This document shows positions 40,523-53,651 of a stretch of DNA of 64,000 bases, piece after piece; position 1 is the stretch's first letter; every line of letters starts with the position of its first letter. Position numbers and translations under genes: made by a program. The notes below the pieces were generated by a model that worked only from the letters and a program-made list of their open reading frames with translations, searched no databases and had not been told where the DNA came from. The DNA is from Pseudoxanthomonas sp. JBR18 (GTDB taxonomy: Bacteria > Pseudomonadota > Gammaproteobacteria > Xanthomonadales > Xanthomonadaceae). The stretch spans positions 372,001 through 436,000 of the forward strand of contig NZ_CP116339.1 in assembly GCF_028198165.1 (NCBI RefSeq), read 5' to 3'.

Positions 40523-42484
40523 TTATTGCGTGGCACCTTCCGACGCCGCTTCCGCCTCTTCCTCGATCTTTTGGCGCAGGCGACCGGCGCGCACCAGGAT
40601 CGCGGGCGGGCGCGTTTCTTCGGGAATGCTGAGCAGGCGCAGCCGGCGCAGGAACTGCCCCGGGCCGCGTGCGGAGGTCAGGGCCACGATCGGGATGGAG
40701 AACACCAGCCCAATGATCACCGGCGACATCCAGGCCAGCAGCGCGGGTGAAACAAAATACGCCGCCGCGCCCATCATCACGCCGAACAGGGACAGACCGC
40801 CGTAGCGCAGGGTCAGCGTGGACCACGGCATGGAGCCGTCATCGCGACGCTGCGCGTCCCAGCCCGAATCCTTGCCGGCCAGTACCTCGGCCACGCCGCG
40901 CGACTGTACGTACATGACGATCGGCGCCATCAACGCGGCCAGCACGCTTTCGATCACGATGCTGACGATCATCCGCGCCGCGCCGCCGCAGCCACGCCGG
41001 ACCTTGCCATCGGCCAGCACCGCCAGATAACCCATCACTTTCGGCGCAAACAGGGCGAACATCGTCGCGCCGAATACCCAGACAATGCGCTCGGGATCGA
41101 GTGAACGCCAATAATCGACCGGCGAAAAATGCGCCAGGTCCTGCAGGCTCACCAGCACGCCCGACTGGTCCAGCGGGATCGCGATGCCGATCAGCATCAT
41201 CAAGGCCCACATCGGCGCGGTGAGGTAATGGCCGATGCCGATCAGGAAATGGGTGCGGCTGATCCAGTGCATGCCGCGGGTCGGCAGCACGCCCACATGC
41301 TGCAGGTTGCCCTGGCACCAGCGGCGGTCACGCACCAGCAGGTCGGTCAGCGACGGCGGGCCTTCCTCGAAGCTGCCGCCCAGCGCGGGCGTCATGTGAC
41401 AGGCCCAGCCGCCGCGGCGGATCAACGCGGCCTCAACGAAGTCATGACTCAGCACATGGCCGTTGAAGGGCCGCACGCCCTCCAACTCGGGCAGTCCACA
41501 GTGATCGGCGAATGCCTTGGTGCGGATGACGGCGTTATGCCCCCAGTAGTTGCTCTCGGTGCCGTGCCACCAAGCCACGCCATGGGCGATCACCGGCCCG
41601 TACACGCGACCGGCGAACTGCTGCATCCGCGCGAATAAGGTGCTGCCGTTGACGATCAGCGGCAGCGATTGGATCAGCCCCACATCGGGGTGGGTTTCCA
41701 GGCCCCAGGCCAGGCGCACGATGGTGTCGCCGGTCATCAGGCTGTCTGCGTCCAGGATCAGCATCTGCGGATAGGCGCCGCCAAAGCGGCGTACCCACTC
41801 GGCGATATTGCCGGCCTTGCGCTCGCGGTTGTCCGCGCGATGGCGGTAGTACAGGTTCGGCGCGCCGCCCAGGCGCTCGCGCAGGCGGTGGAACTCGGCC
41901 ACCTCCTCCATGCGGATGGCGCCACGCGTGGTGTCCGAGAGGATGAAGAAGTCGAACTGCTCCAGATACCCGGTTTCGCGCACCGACTCGTAGATCGCCT
42001 GCAGGCCGGCCATCAGCCGCTGCGGCTCCTCGTTGTAGGTGGGCATCAGCAGTGCGGTGCGCACGGAGGGGGCAGGCAGCGGATCCTCCGGACGCAGGCC
42101 CAGGCGGCGCCGGCGGCGGGTGACGATCAGCATGAACCCGGCGAACGCACTGACGAAGGACAACGCCACCCAGGCGAACAGCAGGGTGAAGAATGCGAGG
42201 AACACCACCTCCAGGACGCCGAGCCCATCGGTGGCCATGACCCGCATCATCTGGAACAGGCCCGCCAGCGTGATCGCCGCGGTGCCGCCGAAGATGTAGA
42301 TGCGCCGGGCGACCATGTTCGGCGGCGAGGACGGCATCGGGGGCGTTTTCAGCTTGCCTTGGCGCAGGGACTGGACCGGCATGTCCAGCCGATGTTCCGG
42401 CGGCATCTGCTCGTAGGCGCGGGCTTCGTCGCTGACGGTGATCTCGACCTTGGGGCCGATGCTGATGGGTTGGACGACCCTCAC
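40523..42484 (-). CDS. mdoH: Glucan biosynthesis glucosyltransferase OpgH/MdoH (653 aa)
   Basis: An inner-membrane processive GT2 enzyme that builds the beta-1,2 backbone of osmoregulated periplasmic glucans from UDP-glucose. N-terminal transmembrane segments are at about residues 63-85 and 92-122. The cytoplasmic GT domain begins [19 protein letters not shown]. It has the DxD motif LDADSLM, a second acidic site in [12 protein letters not shown], and the RRWCQGN (QxxRW-type) motif. Several C-terminal transmembrane helices follow. GTG start at 42484. No opgG is adjacent. It faces tRNA-Ile2. Confidence 0.94.
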
Positions 42485-46504: not shown

Positions 46505-47479
46505 GTGAGCACGGCCACGCAGGCGCTGTGGATCGAGGGAAAAGGCCGTTTCGCGCTGCGCGAAACACTGTTGCCGACGCCAGGACCCGATCAGGTCCTG
46601 GTGCGCACCCGCTACAGCGGGATCAGCCGTGGCACCGAGGCCCTGGTTGCAGCGGGCAAGGTCCCACCTTCCGAACACGCACGCATGCGGGCTCCCTTCC
46701 AGGAAGGCCAGTTCCCGTTCCCGGTCAAGTACGGCTATGCCTGCGTGGGCACGGTGGAGGCCGGGCCTGAGCCGCTGCGCGGTCGCGAGGTGTTCTGCCT
46801 GCATCCGCACCAGGGCGCCTTCGTCGTCGCCGCCGATCGTGTCACTCCGCTGCCGCCGCAGCTGCCCGCCGCGCGTGCCGTGCTGGCCGCCAACGCGGAA
46901 ACCGCGCTCAACGTGCTGTGGGACGCCCGCATCGCCGCGGGCGACCGGGTCGTGGTGGTCGGCGCCGGCGTGGTCGGCGCGCTGGTCGCCCACCTGGCCG
47001 GGCGACTGCCGGCGACCGAGGTCACCCTGGTCGACATCGACACCTCGCGCCAGTCCCTGGCCGACCAACTGGGCGTGTCATTCACCGTGCCCGACCAGGC
47101 ACCACGGAACTGCGATGTCGTGGTCCACGCCAGTGCGAGCGAGTCCGGCTTGTCCACCGCGCTGGCTTGTGCGGGGTTCGAGGCCCGGGTGGTGGAGGCC
47201 AGCTGGTATGGCGAGCGGATCGCCCGCCTGCCTCTGGGAGAAAGCTTCCACAGCCAACGCCTGCAGCTGGTGTCCTCGCAGGTGGGCCACCTGCCGCCCT
47301 CGCAGCGCGCGCGCTGGGACTACGCACGGCGCATGGCCACCGCCCTGTCGCTGCTCGACGACCCCCGCCTGGACGCCCTGATCTCCGGGGAGACGCCTTT
47401 CCAAGACGCCCCCAACGACTACCCCACAGTGCTGGCCCACGCCGGCACCCTGTGCCATCGCTTCCGCTATCCCGACTGA
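46505..47479 (+). CDS. MDR-superfamily oxidoreductase without zinc ligands (324 aa)
   Basis: A medium-chain dehydrogenase/reductase fold protein. The N-terminal GroES-like domain carries YSGISRGTEALVAAG, where classical alcohol dehydrogenases have a Cys zinc ligand, and KYGYACVGTVE in place of GHE, so the catalytic zinc is absent. The Rossmann motif is VVVVGAGVVGALVAHL (about 157-172), followed by VTLVDID. This SRGTE type resembles BchC and related oxidoreductases acting on complex substrates. GTG 46505 (MSTATQALWIEG) is chosen over the upstream ATG 46412, whose extension looks non-coding. It is followed after 20 bases by the PTPS-like gene, in the same operon. Confidence 0.85.
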   Translation: MSTATQALWIEGKGRFALRETLLPTPGPDQVLVRTRYSGISRGTEALVAAGKVPPSEHARMRAPFQEGQFPFPVKYGYACVGTVEAGPEPLRGREVFCLHPHQGAFVVAADRVTPLPPQLPAARAVLAANAETALNVLWDARIAAGDRVVVVGAGVVGALVAHLAGRLPATEVTLVDIDTSRQSLADQLGVSFTVPDQAPRNCDVVVHASASESGLSTALACAGFEARVVEASWYGERIARLPLGESFHSQRLQLVSSQVGHLPPSQRARWDYARRMATALSLLDDPRLDALISGETPFQDAPNDYPTVLAHAGTLCHRFRYPD

Positions 47480-47499
47480 CCGCAAGGAGCTCGCCCCGC

Positions 47500-47898
47500 A
47501 TGTTCGCCGTCGAAGTCCGAGACCACGTGATGATCGCCCACAGCCTGCCGGGGGAGACCTTCGGACCCGCCCAGGGCCTGCACGGCGCCACCTTCGTCGT
47601 CGACGCCGCGTTCTACGCCGCCGAATTGGACGATGACGGCCTGGTCGTGGACATCGGCCTGGCCACGCCGCTGCTGGCCGAAATCCTCAAACCGCTCAAC
47701 TACCAGAACCTGGACGCGCTGCCGCAGTTCGTCGGCAAGACCACGACCACCGAGTTCCTGGCCAAGTACATCTTCGACCAGTTGCGCGCGGCCATCGCCA
47801 CCGGCCGCCTGGGCGCAGGCGGCGCACGGGTGAAGAAGCTGCGCGTGCTGCTGCACGAGTCGCACGTGGCCCGCGCCTGGTACGAGTCCGAGCTATGA
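47500..47898 (+). CDS. 6-pyruvoyltetrahydropterin synthase/QueD-fold protein with altered active site (132 aa)
   Basis: It has the T-fold of PTPS/QueD by pattern: MIAHSL with His14, GLHGATF with His28, KTTTTEFLAKYIFDQL, and LHESHVARAWYE with Glu120. Yet the third zinc ligand is Ala30 (HGA instead of HGH), the catalytic Cys is Ala24, and the Asp-His pair (LDHHY in QueD) reads LNYQN. Normal 6-carboxytetrahydropterin or pyruvoyltetrahydropterin chemistry is therefore unlikely. The pterin-binding glutamate region is kept, so pterin or pyrimidine binding is plausible. AAGGAG precedes ATG 47500; its TGA overlaps the glycosyltransferase ATG. Confidence 0.85.
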   Translation: MFAVEVRDHVMIAHSLPGETFGPAQGLHGATFVVDAAFYAAELDDDGLVVDIGLATPLLAEILKPLNYQNLDALPQFVGKTTTTEFLAKYIFDQLRAAIATGRLGAGGARVKKLRVLLHESHVARAWYESEL

Positions 47899-48962
47899 GC
47901 CAGCGCGCGCTGGTGTTCGCCATCCCCGGCAACCTGGACAGCCCCACCGGCGGCTATGGCTACGACCGCCGGATCATCTCCGGCCTGCGCGCGCACGGTT
48001 GGCAGGTGCAGGTCCTCGGCCTGCCCGACGGTTTCCCGCACCCCACCGCGGCCGACCAGACCGCGACGCTCCAGGCACTGGCAGGCCTGCCTGATGGGAC
48101 GCTGGTCATGATCGACGGACTGGCGCTAGGAGCGATGGAGACCGACGCGGTGGCCGAAGCCGCCGCACGCCTGGACGTGGTGGCGCTGGTCCATCATCCG
48201 CTGGGGCTGGAAGACGGGCTCGAACCTGCCCGCGCGCAGGCGCTGCTGGACGCCGAGCGTGCGGCGCTTGCGCAGGTCCGCAGGGTCGTCACGACCAGCG
48301 ACACCACGGCGCGCACCCTGCAGGCCGACTTCGACATCCCTTGCGAACGTCTGCGCGTGGTGCCGCCCGGGCTGGACAAGCCGGACCTGCCCCCGCACGA
48401 CCCGGTCACCGATGAACTCGAGACTCCGGCCACACCGCTGCGCCTGCTGTCCGTCGGCAGCCTGATTCCGCGCAAGGGCCACGCGCGGCTGATCGAGGCG
48501 CTGGCGCCCTTGCGCGACCTGGATTGGACGCTGCGCATCGTCGGCGGTGGGCGCGAGGGGGATACCGGCCGTGATCTGCAGGCCCGCATCGCGCGGCACG
48601 GACTGCAGGCCCGCATCACCCTGGTCGGCCCAGTGCCTGACACGGCACCGGAACTCGCGCAGGCCGACGTGTTCGTCCTGCCCAGCCGTTACGAGGGCTA
48701 CGGCATGGCCTTCGCCGAGGCCATGGCCTACGGCCTGCCGGTGATCGGCTGCGGAGCCGGCGCGGTTCCCGAAGTGGTGCCGCCCTCGGCCGGGATCCTG
48801 GTGCCGGTCGACGACGTGGAGGCCCTGACCGACGCCCTGCGCTCGCTGCTGACCGATGCGCCGCGCCGTCAGCTGCTGGCCGCCGGCGCGCGCCAGGCCG
48901 CGGCGATGCTGCCGGACTGGTCCGCACGCGCGGCGCAGATGGCGCAGGTGTTGGAGGCATGA
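47895..48962 (+). CDS. GT4-family glycosyltransferase (355 aa)
   Basis: A GT-B fold glycosyltransferase. The N-terminal glycine-rich loop is NLDSPTGGYGYDRRIISGLRAHG. The C-terminal nucleotide-sugar domain carries LLSVGSLIPRKGHARLIEAL, LVGPVPDTAPELAQADVFVLPSRYEGYGMAFAEAMAYGLPVIG with the EX7E-type motif, and AGAVPEVV. It has no membrane segment. ATGA overlaps with both neighbours place it in one translationally coupled unit with the PTPS-like protein and a methyltransferase. Acceptor unknown; a pterin- or pyrimidine-derived molecule is inferred from context. Confidence 0.9.
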   Translation: MSQRALVFAIPGNLDSPTGGYGYDRRIISGLRAHGWQVQVLGLPDGFPHPTAADQTATLQALAGLPDGTLVMIDGLALGAMETDAVAEAAARLDVVALVHHPLGLEDGLEPARAQALLDAERAALAQVRRVVTTSDTTARTLQADFDIPCERLRVVPPGLDKPDLPPHDPVTDELETPATPLRLLSVGSLIPRKGHARLIEALAPLRDLDWTLRIVGGGREGDTGRDLQARIARHGLQARITLVGPVPDTAPELAQADVFVLPSRYEGYGMAFAEAMAYGLPVIGCGAGAVPEVVPPSAGILVPVDDVEALTDALRSLLTDAPRRQLLAAGARQAAAMLPDWSARAAQMAQVLEA

Positions 48963-49744
48963 GCGGCTTTTCCGAGCAATGGCTGGACCTGCGCGAACCG
49001 GCCGATCACGCCGCGCGCGACCAAACCCTGCTCGGCCTCGCCGCCGCGCGCCTGGACGCTCGGCCGCACGCAACGCTGGTGGATCTGGGCTGCGGAACCG
49101 GCGCCAGCTACCGGGCGTTGGGCCCGCAGCTGCAGGCCCGGCAGACCTGGCATCTGGTCGACCACGATCCGGGCCTGCTGCGGGCCGCGCAGGCCCGGCT
49201 GGCGCCCCACGTCGCGGTGGAAACCCACGCGCTGGACCTCCGCGCCCTGGACACCTTGCCGCTGGAAGGCGCCGACCTGGTGACTGCCTCGGCCCTGTTC
49301 GACCTGGCTGGCGACGCCTGGCTGAGCGCGTTCGCCGATCGCCTCGCGCAGACCGGCGTCGGGCTGTACGCGGTGCTTACCTACGATGGCCGCATGGACT
49401 GGTCCACGCCGCTGCCGGCCGACGTAGCGGTGGTCGAGGCCTTCAACCGCCATCAGCGCGGCGACAAGGGACTGGGCCCGGCCCTGGGGCCGGCGGCCGG
49501 CGGACGCCTGGTCGAACTGCTGCAGACGCGTGGCTACCGTGTGCAGACCGCCGCCAGCCCGTGGGTCCTGACCCAGCCAGGGCCCTTCCAGCAAGCCCTT
49601 CTCGAAGGCATCGTGCAGGCCGCGACCGAAGCAGGGATGGCGTCGGAGCAGGCGCAGGACTGGCTGGCCGAACGCCTGGGCGCGATGCGGTCGTGCACCG
49701 CACGAGTCGGTCATTCGGACGTGCTCGCCTTTCCGCCCGGCTGA
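48959..49744 (+). CDS. SAM-dependent methyltransferase, class I (261 aa)
   Basis: A class I methyltransferase. Motif I is TLVDLGCGTGASYRAL (about residues 40-55), the acidic loop is HLVDHDPGLLRAA, and the motif IV-like stretch is LVTASALFDLAGDAWL. No known subfamily signature is recognised. It overlaps the preceding glycosyltransferase gene by ATGA and closes the operon. The next gene faces it, with 12 bases between stops. Likely modifies the product of the upstream glycosyltransferase; that is an inference. Confidence 0.87.
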   Translation: MSGFSEQWLDLREPADHAARDQTLLGLAAARLDARPHATLVDLGCGTGASYRALGPQLQARQTWHLVDHDPGLLRAAQARLAPHVAVETHALDLRALDTLPLEGADLVTASALFDLAGDAWLSAFADRLAQTGVGLYAVLTYDGRMDWSTPLPADVAVVEAFNRHQRGDKGLGPALGPAAGGRLVELLQTRGYRVQTAASPWVLTQPGPFQQALLEGIVQAATEAGMASEQAQDWLAERLGAMRSCTARVGHSDVLAFPPG

Positions 49745-49756
49745 ACGCCGCGACTT

Positions 49757-50584
49757 TCAGGACATTGGCGCTTCGCGCAGCTCGCAATCGAACACGACAT
49801 CCCCCCCCAGGTCGTAGCTGGTCGTGCGCGGCCTTCGGGCCTGGGCCAGCGAGGACACCGGCGGCAGGGCCAGGCCGGTCGGCCCGGCGCCGATGATCAG
49901 CGGCGCGATCGCCACGTGCAGGCGATCCAGGCAGCCGGCCTCCAGAAAAGAGGCGATGGTGCAGGCACCACCTTCGACCAGCACGCGCCGCAGGCCGCGC
50001 GCGGCCAGCGCCTGGACAATGGCCGGCGCCTCAATGCGCCCGGCATCGTCCATCGGCAATGCCAGGCACGGCACCGTTAGGTCATCGACCCTGGCATTGG
50101 GACCGTGCACCAACAGGACCGGCGCGGCCGCGTCGTGCAGCAGCCGGGCCTGACGCGGGATACGCCCACGCGGATCGATGACCACCCGCACCGGATTGCG
50201 CCCCTCCACCAGGCGCACGGTAAGCGAGGGATCGTCGGCCACGACGGTGCCGACTCCGACCACAATGGCATCCACCAGCGCGCGGCAGCGATGCAGGTGG
50301 CGCAATCCCGCCGCGCCGGAGATGTTGCGCGCGTCGCCATCCACCGTGGCGACCCGCCCGTCGAGCGACTGGCCCACCTGGGCCAGGACGAACGCCGGGC
50401 TGCGCGCGAGTGGCGCGTACAGGGCCCCGCACCGTTCTGCGTATGGCGCCCCCATGGCCTGGCGCGATGGGGGACAATGGCCAGGCCATGTCCCGGCTTC
50501 GGCCTGCGCACGCAAGGCCGCCCAGCTGGCGCTGGTCAATTCTTCGCCATCGTTGCGCGCGTCGGAATGCACCTGCTGGTCCAT
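49757..50584 (-). CDS. RibD-type reductase domain protein without deaminase domain (275 aa)
   Basis: The C-terminal two thirds match the 5-amino-6-(5-phosphoribosylamino)uracil reductase domain of RibD: FVLAQVGQSLDGRVAT (about residues 69-84), VVGVGTVVADDPSLTVR, RVVIDPRGRIP, RVLVEGG and LHVAIAPLIIGAG. The zinc deaminase domain that RibD carries in front is missing; instead there is an unrelated N-terminus of about 65 residues. It may reduce the ribosyl group of a GTP-cyclohydrolase II product. It is divergent from a GTP cyclohydrolase II gene with 229 bases between starts. Confidence 0.88.
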   Translation of the reverse strand: MDQQVHSDARNDGEELTSASWAALRAQAEAGTWPGHCPPSRQAMGAPYAERCGALYAPLARSPAFVLAQVGQSLDGRVATVDGDARNISGAAGLRHLHRCRALVDAIVVGVGTVVADDPSLTVRLVEGRNPVRVVIDPRGRIPRQARLLHDAAAPVLLVHGPNARVDDLTVPCLALPMDDAGRIEAPAIVQALAARGLRRVLVEGGACTIASFLEAGCLDRLHVAIAPLIIGAGPTGLALPPVSSLAQARRPRTTSYDLGGDVVFDCELREAPMS

Positions 50585-50813
50585 GCATTCAAGCTAGGGA
50601 TGGCAAGGTATGGGGGTTGTGAAATGGCCCAAGACCCCTATAGACAGGATCTCCCGCTCAGCCCCATTCGATCAGGACGACTTCGCACCGCTTTCATCAC
50701 AGCACTCCTAGCGTGACCTTGTTGTTCCGGATGCGTCCGGTCTTACAGGTGCGATGCGCGGGATCAGGAACGGCAATGACGCCGGCCTTCCCTCCATGCC
50801 CGCAGGAGTCCCC
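50585..50813. promoter_or_regulatory. Divergent spacer between RibD-like and GTP cyclohydrolase II genes
   Basis: It must contain promoters for both genes. I looked for an FMN (RFN) riboswitch, expected if these were housekeeping riboflavin genes, and saw none of its conserved helices. An AGGAG Shine-Dalgarno is at 50804-50808. Confidence 0.45.
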
Positions 50814-51965
50814 ATGTCCGCATTGCCCAACCACCTGTTCAACATGCCCACTCGCGTCTCTTCCTCCCTGGCCTTGTTCGGCGACCCTGCCGCGGTCGCC
50901 TGTGAACGTGCCGCCGGGGAACTGCGCAGCGGACGGCCGGTGGTGGTAGTGGACGATGCTGGCGCCGGCACGGCCGTGCTGTCGATCGAGGGCGTGACAC
51001 CGGAGACCTTTGCCAGCTTTGACGAAGCCAGTGGCGGGCAGCACCAGTTGTTCCTCTCTCCGACGCGCGCCCGGGTGCTGGGCCTGGATGCGCCGCATGG
51101 CGCGCGCATCCCGCTAGCCGGGCATGCATTCGATGCCTTGGCCGAACTGGCCTACCTGCCGGCGCAGGCGTATGCCGGCGCCTGGACCAGCGGCACGGGC
51201 CGCGACGCGGGCGCCTCCGCGTTGGCCCGGCTGGGCCTGCTGCTACCGGCCCTGCTGGTCCACGACCTGCCCCGGCAGGCAACCCCCTTCGATGCCTGCG
51301 CCCGGGTCACCTTGCGCCACTTGGCCGATGGCGCGGCCCATGCCGGCCGTGACTGGGAACTGGTGGCGCGTACCCGCGTGCCACTCCGCGAGGTGGGCGA
51401 CGCCCATTTCGTTGTCTTCCGCGGTGGGGTCGCGCTGCGCGATCAGGTCGCCATCGTGGTCGGCCAGCCCGACCTGTCCAAGCCGGTGCCGGTGCGCGTG
51501 CATTCGTCCTGCCTGACCGGCGACCTGTTCGGCTCGCTCAAGTGCGATTGCGGCGACCAGTTGCGCAACGGCCTGCTCAAGCTCAAGGAGCTGGGCGGCG
51601 GCGTGCTGCTGTACCTGGATCAGGAAGGCCGCGGGACCGGCATCGCCGCCAAGATGCGTGCCTATGGCTACCAGCACGATGGCCTGGACACCATCGACGC
51701 CGATGCGCTGCTGGGCTTTGGGCCGGATGAGCGTCGTTACGAAAGCGCGGCCGCGATGCTGCGCGCCTTGGGTGTTGCACGCGTTCGCCTGCTGACCAAC
51801 AACCCCTCCAAGGTCGACCGGCTGCGTGCGGCCGGCGTGGAGGTGATCGGGCGCACCCCGGTGACCGGACGCATCACCGCCGACAACGAGGGTTATCTGC
51901 GCACCAAGGCAGCACGGGCCGGGCACGCGCTGGATGTCGATGCGCTGATTGCCTCGCTGTCCTGA
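50814..51965 (+). CDS. ribA: GTP cyclohydrolase II with a degenerate DHBP-synthase-like N-domain (383 aa)
   Basis: It opens the imidazole ring of GTP to give a 2,5-diaminopyrimidine. Residues about 25-200 resemble DHBP synthase (RibB), but the acidic motif reads VVVVDDAGAGT instead of DDEDRENEGD, so that activity is probably lost. The C-terminal GCH II domain has the zinc cysteines in SSCLTGDLFGSLKCDCGD, the active-site DQEGRGTGIAAKMRAYGYQ, GFGPDERRYE and RLLTNNPSKVDRL. The start at ATG 50814 has AGGAG five bases upstream; the in-frame ATG 50754 is less likely. The gene is probably a paralogue of the housekeeping riboflavin enzyme. Confidence 0.9.
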   Translation: MSALPNHLFNMPTRVSSSLALFGDPAAVACERAAGELRSGRPVVVVDDAGAGTAVLSIEGVTPETFASFDEASGGQHQLFLSPTRARVLGLDAPHGARIPLAGHAFDALAELAYLPAQAYAGAWTSGTGRDAGASALARLGLLLPALLVHDLPRQATPFDACARVTLRHLADGAAHAGRDWELVARTRVPLREVGDAHFVVFRGGVALRDQVAIVVGQPDLSKPVPVRVHSSCLTGDLFGSLKCDCGDQLRNGLLKLKELGGGVLLYLDQEGRGTGIAAKMRAYGYQHDGLDTIDADALLGFGPDERRYESAAAMLRALGVARVRLLTNNPSKVDRLRAAGVEVIGRTPVTGRITADNEGYLRTKAARAGHALDVDALIASLS

Positions 51966-51983
51966 CGGCGTGGAAGCAACGTC

Positions 51984-52808
51984 ATGGCCACCGTCCTCTC
52001 CCGGACTCACGGATACGCGCACGCAGCTGCACGACGTCGCAGCGCGGCGCTGAGTTTTCTTGGCTGCGGCGCCGTCGGCGCGGCGCTGGTCGTTGCGCTG
52101 TCGCGTGCCATCCCGCTGGACTGGCATTTTGGCGTGGCCTCGGCCGCCGTTTACTTGGGCATCGCCTGCGTCGCGCTGACACGGGTGAGCGGACATCACG
52201 CCGGTCCCCGCTTCGGCCTCGCCAACCAGATCACCACCCTGCGTGCGGCGCTGACCTCGCTGTTCGGTGGGCTAGCCACGATGACCCAGACCGTGACGGC
52301 AGACAATGCGTGGCTGTGGGTGTTCGCACTGCTCGGCGCGCTGGCGTTGGCGTTGGACGGCGTGGACGGCTGGCTCGCACGGCGGCTGGGACTCGCCTCG
52401 AAATTCGGCGCGCGTTACGACATGGAGATCGACGCGCTGCTCATCGCCTTGCTGTCGCTGCTGGCCTGGCGTCTGGGCAAGGCGGGACCGTGGGTGCTGG
52501 CCATCGGCGGCATGCGCTATGGCTTCATCGCCGCGGCGGCCGTTCTTCCCCGGCTGCGCGGGCAACTGCCGGACAGCACGCGTCGCAAGACGATCTGCGT
52601 GGTCCAGGGCAGCGTGCTCTGCGCGCTGCTGGCGCCCCCGCTGTTGGGCATCTGGAGCCAGCTGCTGGCCGGTGCCGCACTGACGATGCTGGCGCTATCC
52701 TTTGCCACGGATGTGTGTTGGCTCTGGCGCCATGCACGGCCCGGCGTTTCGGTGTCAGGGCACGCTGACCTGGGTGCGTCGCCGCACCAGGGTCCACAGC
52801 CCCGGTAG
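51984..52808 (+). CDS. CDP-alcohol phosphatidyltransferase family membrane protein (274 aa)
   Basis: An integral membrane enzyme that swaps CMP on a CDP-linked lipid for an alcohol. The full family signature is present: DGVDGWLARRLGLASKFGARYDMEID, where D-x2-D-G-x2-A-R-x8-G-x3-D-x3-D carries the metal-binding aspartates (about residues 121-146). About six transmembrane helices surround it. It follows the GTP cyclohydrolase II gene by 18 bases, so the two are probably one operon. The acceptor alcohol is unknown and need not be glycerol phosphate. The last 54 bases overlap the 3' end of the facing gene. Confidence 0.9.
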   Translation: MATVLSRTHGYAHAAARRRSAALSFLGCGAVGAALVVALSRAIPLDWHFGVASAAVYLGIACVALTRVSGHHAGPRFGLANQITTLRAALTSLFGGLATMTQTVTADNAWLWVFALLGALALALDGVDGWLARRLGLASKFGARYDMEIDALLIALLSLLAWRLGKAGPWVLAIGGMRYGFIAAAAVLPRLRGQLPDSTRRKTICVVQGSVLCALLAPPLLGIWSQLLAGAALTMLALSFATDVCWLWRHARPGVSVSGHADLGASPHQGPQPR

Positions 52809-53651
52809 GGCCCCCACCACGTTCACCAGCCCATAAAGGACCGAGCTGGCAACGCCGTGTTCCGCGCTCAGCCCGACCAGGGGCCACAGCGCCGCGGCGG
52901 CGGCTTCGCGCACGCCCCAGCCGCCAACCGAAATGGGGATGAGCATCGTGGCCAGGGTCAGCGGCAGCACGGTGAGCCAGGCCTGTGCGGGCAACGCATC
53001 GCCCAGTGTCCTGGCGCACAGGGCGAACACCGCCACATAGCTGCCCACGATGCTCACGCTCAACACAGACTGCGTCAGCCAGGCGTCGTCACGCCACCAT
53101 GCGCGCGCCACATCCGGGCCAAGCCCCTGGAGCGCGCGCCGCACCCGCACCGGCCCGCGGCGGGCCAAGCCCCAAACCACGAGTGCGGCCACCACCACCA
53201 GCACGGCCGCCAACAGCAGCGTGACCGCAACGCCTGCCGGACGCGCAGCATCGCGGGCCAGCAGTGGCCAGGCGACAAGACCGAGGCCGGCCAGCACGAA
53301 GAACGCCACCTGCCCGGCCAGCCGCTCCAGAACCACCGCACGCACCGCGCGCGCGGTGCTGGCCGCTTCGCCGGCATGGCGCCAGGCACGCACGGCGTCA
53401 CCTCCGACGCCGCCAGGGAGCGTCTGGTTGAGCAGCGTCGCCAAGTAGTACTCGGCGATGGCCCGTGGCAATGGCAGGACAACCTGGAGGCGCACCGCGG
53501 TGAAACGCCAGCGCATCGCCGAGAGCACGACCTGCAGCTGCACGACCAGCAGCGCCAACAGCAGCCAGACCGGCTGGGCCTGCTTCAGCCCTTCCAGCGT
53601 CGCCGACAGATCCAGCCGCCAGGCGAGCACGGCCAGCAGCGCGAGCGGCAA
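52755..53651 (-). CDS. YbhN/UPF0104-family membrane protein, LPG-synthase TM domain type (about 298 aa)
   Basis: A protein of about eight transmembrane helices similar to the flippase-like domain of lysylphosphatidylglycerol synthase. Family motifs are NQTLPGGVGGDAVRAWR (about 72-88), VVLERLAGQ and LIPISVGGWGVREAA. It may move a lipid-linked product across the inner membrane. TTG 53651 is the first available start, but coding-like sequence (HRPLSWLRW, basic then hydrophobic) continues upstream without any ATG, GTG or TTG, so the real N-terminus is uncertain. It converges on, and overlaps, the phosphatidyltransferase gene. Confidence 0.82.
   Translation of the reverse strand: MPLALLAVLAWRLDLSATLEGLKQAQPVWLLLALLVVQLQVVLSAMRWRFTAVRLQVVLPLPRAIAEYYLATLLNQTLPGGVGGDAVRAWRHAGEAASTARAVRAVVLERLAGQVAFFVLAGLGLVAWPLLARDAARPAGVAVTLLLAAVLVVVAALVVWGLARRGPVRVRRALQGLGPDVARAWWRDDAWLTQSVLSVSIVGSYVAVFALCARTLGDALPAQAWLTVLPLTLATMLIPISVGGWGVREAAAAALWPLVGLSAEHGVASSVLYGLVNVVGALPGLWTLVRRRTQVSVP

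Follow-up and report, generated by a model that had tools for sequence, protein, structure and literature searches.

Subfamily IV of the 6-pyruvoyltetrahydropterin synthase (PTPS) proteins is marked by an FGPAQ motif in an AGeNNT network study, in which a cluster of 561 sequences has PF00925 and PF01872 proteins as genomic neighbours (PMC5445326). In the accessible part of that paper, PF00925 is taken as a folate enzyme and no function is given for PTPS-IV, and an MDR-family dehydrogenase, a GT4 glycosyltransferase, a CDP-alcohol phosphatidyltransferase, a YbhN protein and a YceI protein are not named there in the neighbourhood. A second paper, in its accessible part, lists PTPS-IV with an unpublished role in F420 synthesis (PMC5041015). 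Here we describe a cluster of eight genes that includes a PTPS-IV protein in Pseudoxanthomonas sp. JBR18. It lies in a 64,000-nucleotide stretch of contig NZ_CP116339.1 (positions 372,001 to 436,000), which we call the window. Our search of the open-access literature, with most subscription papers outside its range, found no paper covering the whole gene set; the PTPS-IV neighbourhood appears to be half known, and its lipid module and its near-perfect co-occurrence in an order-level genome sample appear to be new. We propose that the product of the cluster is a vitamin-like compound, a 2-aminopyrimidinone or pterin derived from GTP, with glycosyl and methyl groups added and, in the lineages bearing the CDP-alcohol transferase, a lipid attached, a reading that we favour tentatively and rate a little short of probable. 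In broader terms, the cluster is a new branch of the chemistry of GTP cyclohydrolase II (GCH II) and RibD-type proteins, with an uncertain lipid end.

An earlier note on this DNA had described eight genes within 7 kb, and open reading frames and Pfam matches place all of them, together with two sequence motifs, as follows:

46505-47479 (+): MDR-family dehydrogenase, zinc-free type; a longer in-frame open reading frame starts from GTG 46412
47500-47898 (+): T-fold protein, PTPS subfamily IV; Pfam PTPS, E 1.6e-21
47560-47574 (+): FGPAQ signature of PTPS-IV, residues 21-25, from the sequence; motif name from the accessible part of PMC5445326
47895-48962 (+): GT4 glycosyltransferase; Pfam Glyco_trans_1_4, E 5.7e-34
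48959-49744 (+): class I S-adenosylmethionine-dependent methyltransferase; Pfam Methyltransf_12, E 2.5e-8
49757-50584 (-): RibD_C reductase-only protein, no deaminase domain; Pfam RibD_C, E 3.4e-44
50754-51965 (+): GCH II, PRK08815 type; Pfam GTP_cyclohydro2, E 3e-51
51984-52808 (+): CDP-alcohol phosphatidyltransferase, distinct subfamily; Pfam CDP-OH_P_transf, E 5.4e-16
52356-52433 (+): catalytic motif of this transferase, DxxDGxxARx8GxxxDxxxD, residues 125-150, from the sequence
52755-53651 (-): YbhN/LPG_synthase_TM flippase-like membrane protein; Pfam LPG_synthase_TM, E 8e-40

Seven of the eight families exceed their Pfam cut-offs, the MDR protein falling below (ADH_zinc_N, E 3.6e-4). The genes for MDR, PTPS, GT4 and the methyltransferase are colinear on the plus strand; the fusion of the middle genes by ATGA overlaps, also described in the earlier note, holds at the PTPS/GT4 and GT4/methyltransferase junctions but nowhere else in the locus. 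The RibD reductase gene faces these four from the minus strand and diverges from that of GCH II, with the transferase gene 18 bases downstream of the latter, and YbhN is convergent with the transferase, the two overlapping by 54 bases. Because the RibD reductase and YbhN are encoded on the opposite strand, the locus must be read as at least three transcripts and not as one operon.

That these genes would stay together in relatives, as the earlier note expected, was borne out both by their coincidence within the order and by loci from 25 families. With the MDR protein as the probe (E <= 1e-20), matches were found in 26 of the 299 genomes of an order sample, 16 of 274 in a class sample and 27 of 398 in a phylum sample, a few of those in the class sample being distant (29-39% identity). 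Among the same 299 order genomes, 26 hold the transferase and 25 the PTPS, in common with MDR in 25 and 24 genomes, respectively, a coincidence beyond what chance would give. MDR and the transferase part only once in each direction, in genomes that are 63-65% complete; the exceptions in the order sample are genomes of 63-84% completeness (G220, G226, G158, G209) and G094, which is 99% complete, with its PTPS close to the end of a contig. However, 23 of the 26 MDR-bearing genomes of the order belong to one family, so that they do not represent 26 independent events. A locus sample covers 52 of the loci of the 65 other MDR-bearing genomes, spread over the 25 families. These encode GT4 in 48 cases, PTPS in 47, the methyltransferase in 44, the RibD reductase in 41 and the transferase in 35; further partners are YceI (23), a creatininase-family protein (16), FkbM (15), a sulfatase-like protein (11), MdoH (10) and cytochrome b561 (7). 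Counts for genes other than PTPS are taken from the automatic best open frame; as several loci are cut off by the end of their contig, these counts are minimum values. With the lipid module in one part of the range and something else in another, the core of the system is MDR-PTPS-GT4-methyltransferase-RibD.

We conclude that this is a real, widely conserved pathway that recurs far outside the genus. Judged from the sequences compared, its distribution appears patchy but very wide, and looks vertical. Besides the phylum-sample genomes, its reach includes genomes of 1.0-1.1 Mb and plasmids of haloarchaea, rhizobia, streptomycetes and a methanotroph. This breadth bears on the idea of an antibiotic pathway of nucleoside-like or azapteridine type, similar to toxoflavin synthesis, with which the cluster has GCH II, a RibD-type protein and a methyltransferase in common; given the wide, vertical-looking spread, the presence in 1.0-1.1 Mb genomes and the lipid-type partners, we rate it as highly unlikely.

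Searched for with phmmer, the PTPS protein was found in 59 of 67 loci; it was not found by this search in L167, L177-L180, L208, L215 and L217, although a more distant PTPS is annotated in L208. The FGPAQ signature recurs in 52 of the 59, five have FGPAR or FGPAK, and two have neither. In tallies over 60 sequences, the catalytic Cys is replaced by Gly in every one, and the third zinc-binding His, lost in the window protein, which reads HGA for HGH, is kept in a single one (L219). Glu85 and Glu120 are retained in the window protein. With the catalytic Cys absent throughout, a pyruvoyl-tetrahydropterin synthase is unlikely: the window protein does not have the CxxxxxHGH motif of the 6-pyruvoyltetrahydropterin synthases (PTPS-II), and QueD (PTPS-I) was likewise rejected, since the protein scores 37.6 bits against an NCBIfam cut-off of 89.25 and the CxxxHGH motif is absent. 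Its relative of known structure is SCO6650 of Streptomyces coelicolor (PDB 3d7j; E 1e-41), which reportedly lacks zinc and the PTPS triad and shows no PTPS activity. The window protein is matched by at least 8000 clustered sequences at E <= 1e-10, and both described PTPS-IV neighbours, PF00925 and PF01872, are present at the window locus. If the proposal holds, a single pathway would take in many proteins at present labelled PTPS or 6-carboxytetrahydropterin synthase, and the named gene set with the ordered scheme given below makes the role of SCO6650-type proteins directly testable. SCO6650-type PTPS genes also occur singly: two Streptomyces plasmids (L213, 9001-9399; L214, 9001-9426) carry one without a cluster, next to MEKHLA, cupin and regulator genes.

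Cluster-bearing haloarchaea and actinobacteria may make F420, and a part in its synthesis would agree with the unpublished remark on PTPS-IV, as it appears in the accessible part of PMC5041015. For the window protein this is a poor fit and, of all the alternatives, the one to which we give the faintest chance, as its own genome yields no match to a CofH-type FO synthase at E <= 0.001; a control search with CofH gave matches in 11 of 14 genomes, three of them above the cut-off.

The best NCBIfam match of the MDR protein is BchC (E 4.7e-18; 65 bits against a cut-off of 291), the 3-hydroxyethyl bacteriochlorophyllide dehydrogenase, which makes a ketone from a secondary alcohol. Like BchC, the MDR protein is zinc-free; unlike BchC, it has no chlorophyll context. 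Its conserved GxGxxG and the Asp ending the second strand suggest NAD as the cofactor. The RibD protein (275 residues) consists of a RibD_C domain, and the deaminase domain of bifunctional RibD was not found in it with Pfam; in this it resembles the archaeal and fungal ArfC/Rib7 reductases, although it remains below the cut-off of the archaeal reductase model (123.5 against 186.5 bits). The predicted fold of the methyltransferase is that of an ordinary class I enzyme (best TM-score 0.63-0.66, to 3mgg) and is uninformative as to its substrate.

In the scheme that we propose, GCH II would open GTP to 2,5-diamino-6-ribosylamino-pyrimidinone 5'-phosphate, and the RibD reductase would convert its ribosyl to a ribityl chain as its archaeal and fungal counterparts do; with no deamination, the 2-amino group would stay. 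Up to this reduced pyrimidine phosphate the steps would follow known reactions of the families, while the later ones we infer. The NAD-type MDR enzyme might then turn a side-chain hydroxyl into a ketone, a reaction like that of BchC on its own substrate; PTPS-IV, which is zinc-free, might grip the aminopyrimidine by its conserved Glu and close or rearrange a ring; and GT4 and the methyltransferase would decorate the ring product. In transferase-bearing lineages, the PgsA-like enzyme could transfer phosphatidate from CDP-diacylglycerol to a phosphate-bearing polyol tail, YbhN could flip the lipid-linked product, and YceI, as a periplasmic lipid-binding protein, could carry it in many relatives.

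A specific chemical version of this proposal is a pterin route independent of GTP cyclohydrolase I (GCH I), in which the RibD reduction and an NAD-dependent C2' oxidation by MDR together take the role of the Amadori step of GCH I, and the T-fold protein closes the ring, giving 7,8-dihydroneopterin 3'-phosphate for later modification. The pairing of an NADPH-type reductase family with an NAD-type dehydrogenase would suit it, as would the likeness of MDR to ketone-forming BchC, its best named relative, and the fact that GCH I is itself a T-fold enzyme. Yet it is drawn purely from chemistry, and bacteria normally use GCH I for dihydroneopterin, which makes this version quite unlikely.

The lipid end of the proposal depends on the transferase. 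Its catalytic motif is intact in the window and in 43 of 43 loci, and its predicted fold resembles that of PgsA; with PgsA and its kin it thus shares the full motif and, as modelled, the fold. It nevertheless forms a distinct subfamily, with no phmmer match in the PDB and 27.6 bits against a cut-off of 109.1 in the pgsA model. A profile of it separates its own members in the phylum sample (at least 175 bits; 19 of 398 genomes) from everything else (at most 63 bits). Of these 19 genomes, 15 have MDR. The two genes usually lie within about 1 kb of each other; G582 and G891 carry the transferase at another place in the genome. Furthermore, a gene for YceI, a periplasmic lipid-binding protein, stands beside the transferase gene on the same strand, touching it or at most 490 bases away, in 22 loci; in L169 it is 979 bases away and on the other strand. 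Loci pairing YceI with the transferase come from seven families. YceI together with YbhN is the best new pointer to a lipid-like product, the window's YbhN-type protein being a putative flippase as judged from its LPG_synthase_TM domain only.

Several observations weigh against the proposed scheme. YbhN and GCH II are present in only 27 and 26 of the 52 loci, respectively; no YceI gene was found near the window's own cluster; and Foldseek returned no match for the transferase model at E <= 0.001 (best 1.9e-3). Four phylum-sample genomes, all of family f224, have the transferase without MDR, and 12 of the 27 with MDR lack such a transferase, although this absence is uncertain, scoring having covered no more than six candidates in each genome. 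Moreover, eight loci have an MdoH-like glycosyltransferase just upstream of MDR, divergent from it, at the position that the transferase holds in others, and in Rhodobacteraceae SC52 only MDR, PTPS, methyltransferase and RibD occur together. The transferase-free genomes and SC52 would suit a different arrangement, in which the core makes a soluble glycosylated, methylated pterin or pyrimidine and the transferase and YbhN handle a separate, co-used lipid; the coincidence of MDR and transferase in 25 order genomes, and their usual spacing of within about 1 kb, speak against such a separation, and we regard it as possible but rather doubtful. A lipid step, as put forward in the earlier note, is plausible through the transferase's co-occurrence with the core, its intact motif, its PgsA-like predicted fold and the adjoining YceI, though the transferase is not universal and attachment to a lipid would apply only where it is present.

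The boldest form of the proposal would be a phosphatidyl-linked, glycosylated and methylated pterin lipid, found across domains, made from GTP without GCH I chemistry through GCH II, a RibD reductase, an NAD dehydrogenase and a zinc-free T-fold enzyme, flipped by YbhN, carried by YceI and possibly exchanging electrons through cytochrome b561, a gene for which lies beside the cluster in 10 loci. We consider this speculative and on balance unlikely; if true, a pterin-bearing lipid would be a new class of membrane molecule.

On GCH II, the earlier note is partly reversed. As it had anticipated, a second, riboswitch-controlled riboflavin operon (RibD, RibBA, RibE, RibH) is present apart from the cluster, at C1:821-825 kb, and contains the sole RF00050 FMN riboswitch match of the genome (C1:823516-823689); this genome search found none at the cluster locus. 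PF01872 has three matches in the genome, namely the cluster RibD reductase, the operon RibD and one distant protein, and PF00925 has two, the cluster GCH II and the operon RibBA. In the latter, however, N, D and F take the place of the three zinc Cys, whereas the cluster protein keeps all three along with the active-site Tyr and Arg; its family match begins at residue 34, and its true start may be further in. With the operon RibBA degenerate, the cluster GCH II is the only intact one found by PF00925. The cluster's ribA/ribD genes are therefore not the genome's only pair as far as ribD is concerned, but for GCH II they hold the sole intact copy found, and the view of a recruited paralogue fails. 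Presumably the cluster GCH II supplies the riboflavin precursor as well. In eight of 12 other genomes of the genus, PF00925 finds no intact GCH II, just a degenerate RibBA (G032, G946, G947, G948, G950, G951, G953, G956).

Among the best 80 of 174 confirmed GCH II relatives, whose neighbours were searched by tblastn (E <= 1e-6), two have MDR, PTPS, methyltransferase, RibD reductase and transferase next to GCH II, namely Xanthomonas sp. AmX2 (L032) and Coralloluteibacterium (L071). None of these genes adjoins it in the other 78; weak GT4 matches (29-31%) in three loci were disregarded. Being the sole intact copy found, and kept alone in 78 of 80 listed relatives, GCH II might suggest that the locus is a back-up or regulated riboflavin branch. 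With RibD, RibBA, RibE and RibH encoded elsewhere with an FMN riboswitch, and with PTPS, GT4, methyltransferase and lipid enzymes having no role in riboflavin synthesis, this is very improbable.

The nearest relative of the window GCH II is that of a cluster-less Pseudoxanthomonas (L007, 78%), and the nearest of L032 are other lone copies. Cluster remnants were sought in the cluster-less loci L007, L010, L021, L048 and L068, and none was supported; the extra stretch before GCH II in L021 and L010 is a GNAT acetyltransferase-like gene (named by eye). The same gene lies inside the cluster of L032 (7989-8507, minus strand), between methyltransferase and RibD reductase, a position that favours piecewise loss of an old cluster. 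We accordingly read the site, on gene order and sequence, as one where an old cluster was probably lost piecemeal around an essential GCH II; alternatively, it may have been gained in pieces. L075, on a contig titled Bacillus subtilis SK7B5, has a Stenotrophomonas-type rpoD/GCH II neighbourhood and is probably contamination.

Outside the cluster, the upstream flank of the window encodes a lipid A-type acyltransferase and the downstream flank two open frames, the first with a bPH_2 domain (Pfam); about 4 kb upstream lies an open reading frame resembling an MdoH-type glucosyltransferase (40523-42484, minus strand). A foreign origin by composition was rejected, as the G+C content of the cluster (0.707) equals that of its flanks (0.709 and 0.696).

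Plasmid-borne versions occur in Streptomyces (L207), Microbacterium (L210), Methylosinus (L211), rhizobia (L212, L218) and haloarchaea (L208, L215, L217, L219). In L208, MDR is fused, in this order, with a GTP cyclohydrolase IIa and a CDP-alcohol transferase. Three more distant loci (L177, L179, L180) have GCH II, RibD reductase and an MDR protein of 26-35% identity (tblastn) in a row on one strand, possibly a second version of the pathway.

A creatininase-family gene accompanies 18 of the 67 loci and is absent from the window cluster. In SCO6655 of Streptomyces coelicolor, a GCH II, a Met at the position where the window protein has Tyr halts the reaction at the formylated product; among 32 GCH II sequences (the window and 31 loci), this Met occurs once, in Streptomyces L207. 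The idea that creatininase marks a GCH II whose product retains the formyl group was rejected, since 13 of the 14 loci with both genes pair it with a Tyr-type GCH II. The family includes BrbF, a proven AFRPP formamidase of a riboflavin branch, according to the accessible part of PMC9478397. By analogy, the protein near the cluster in relatives could be a formamidase too, though it mostly stands beside a GCH II needing none.

A sulfatase-like membrane protein is encoded beside the cluster in 14 loci, often with FkbM, for instance in L183 (12960-14648, plus strand; just under the Pfam Sulfatase cut-off) and L212 (3487-5112, minus strand); it could be a head-group transferase. Finally, in the 1.0-1.1 Mb genomes of L175 and L176, where the neighbouring genes other than PRA-CH and YceI are named by eye, the cluster has cytochrome c maturation-like genes on one side and, on the other, a PRA-CH (HisI-type) gene and genes that read as MOSC, ThiF/MoeB and MoaA.

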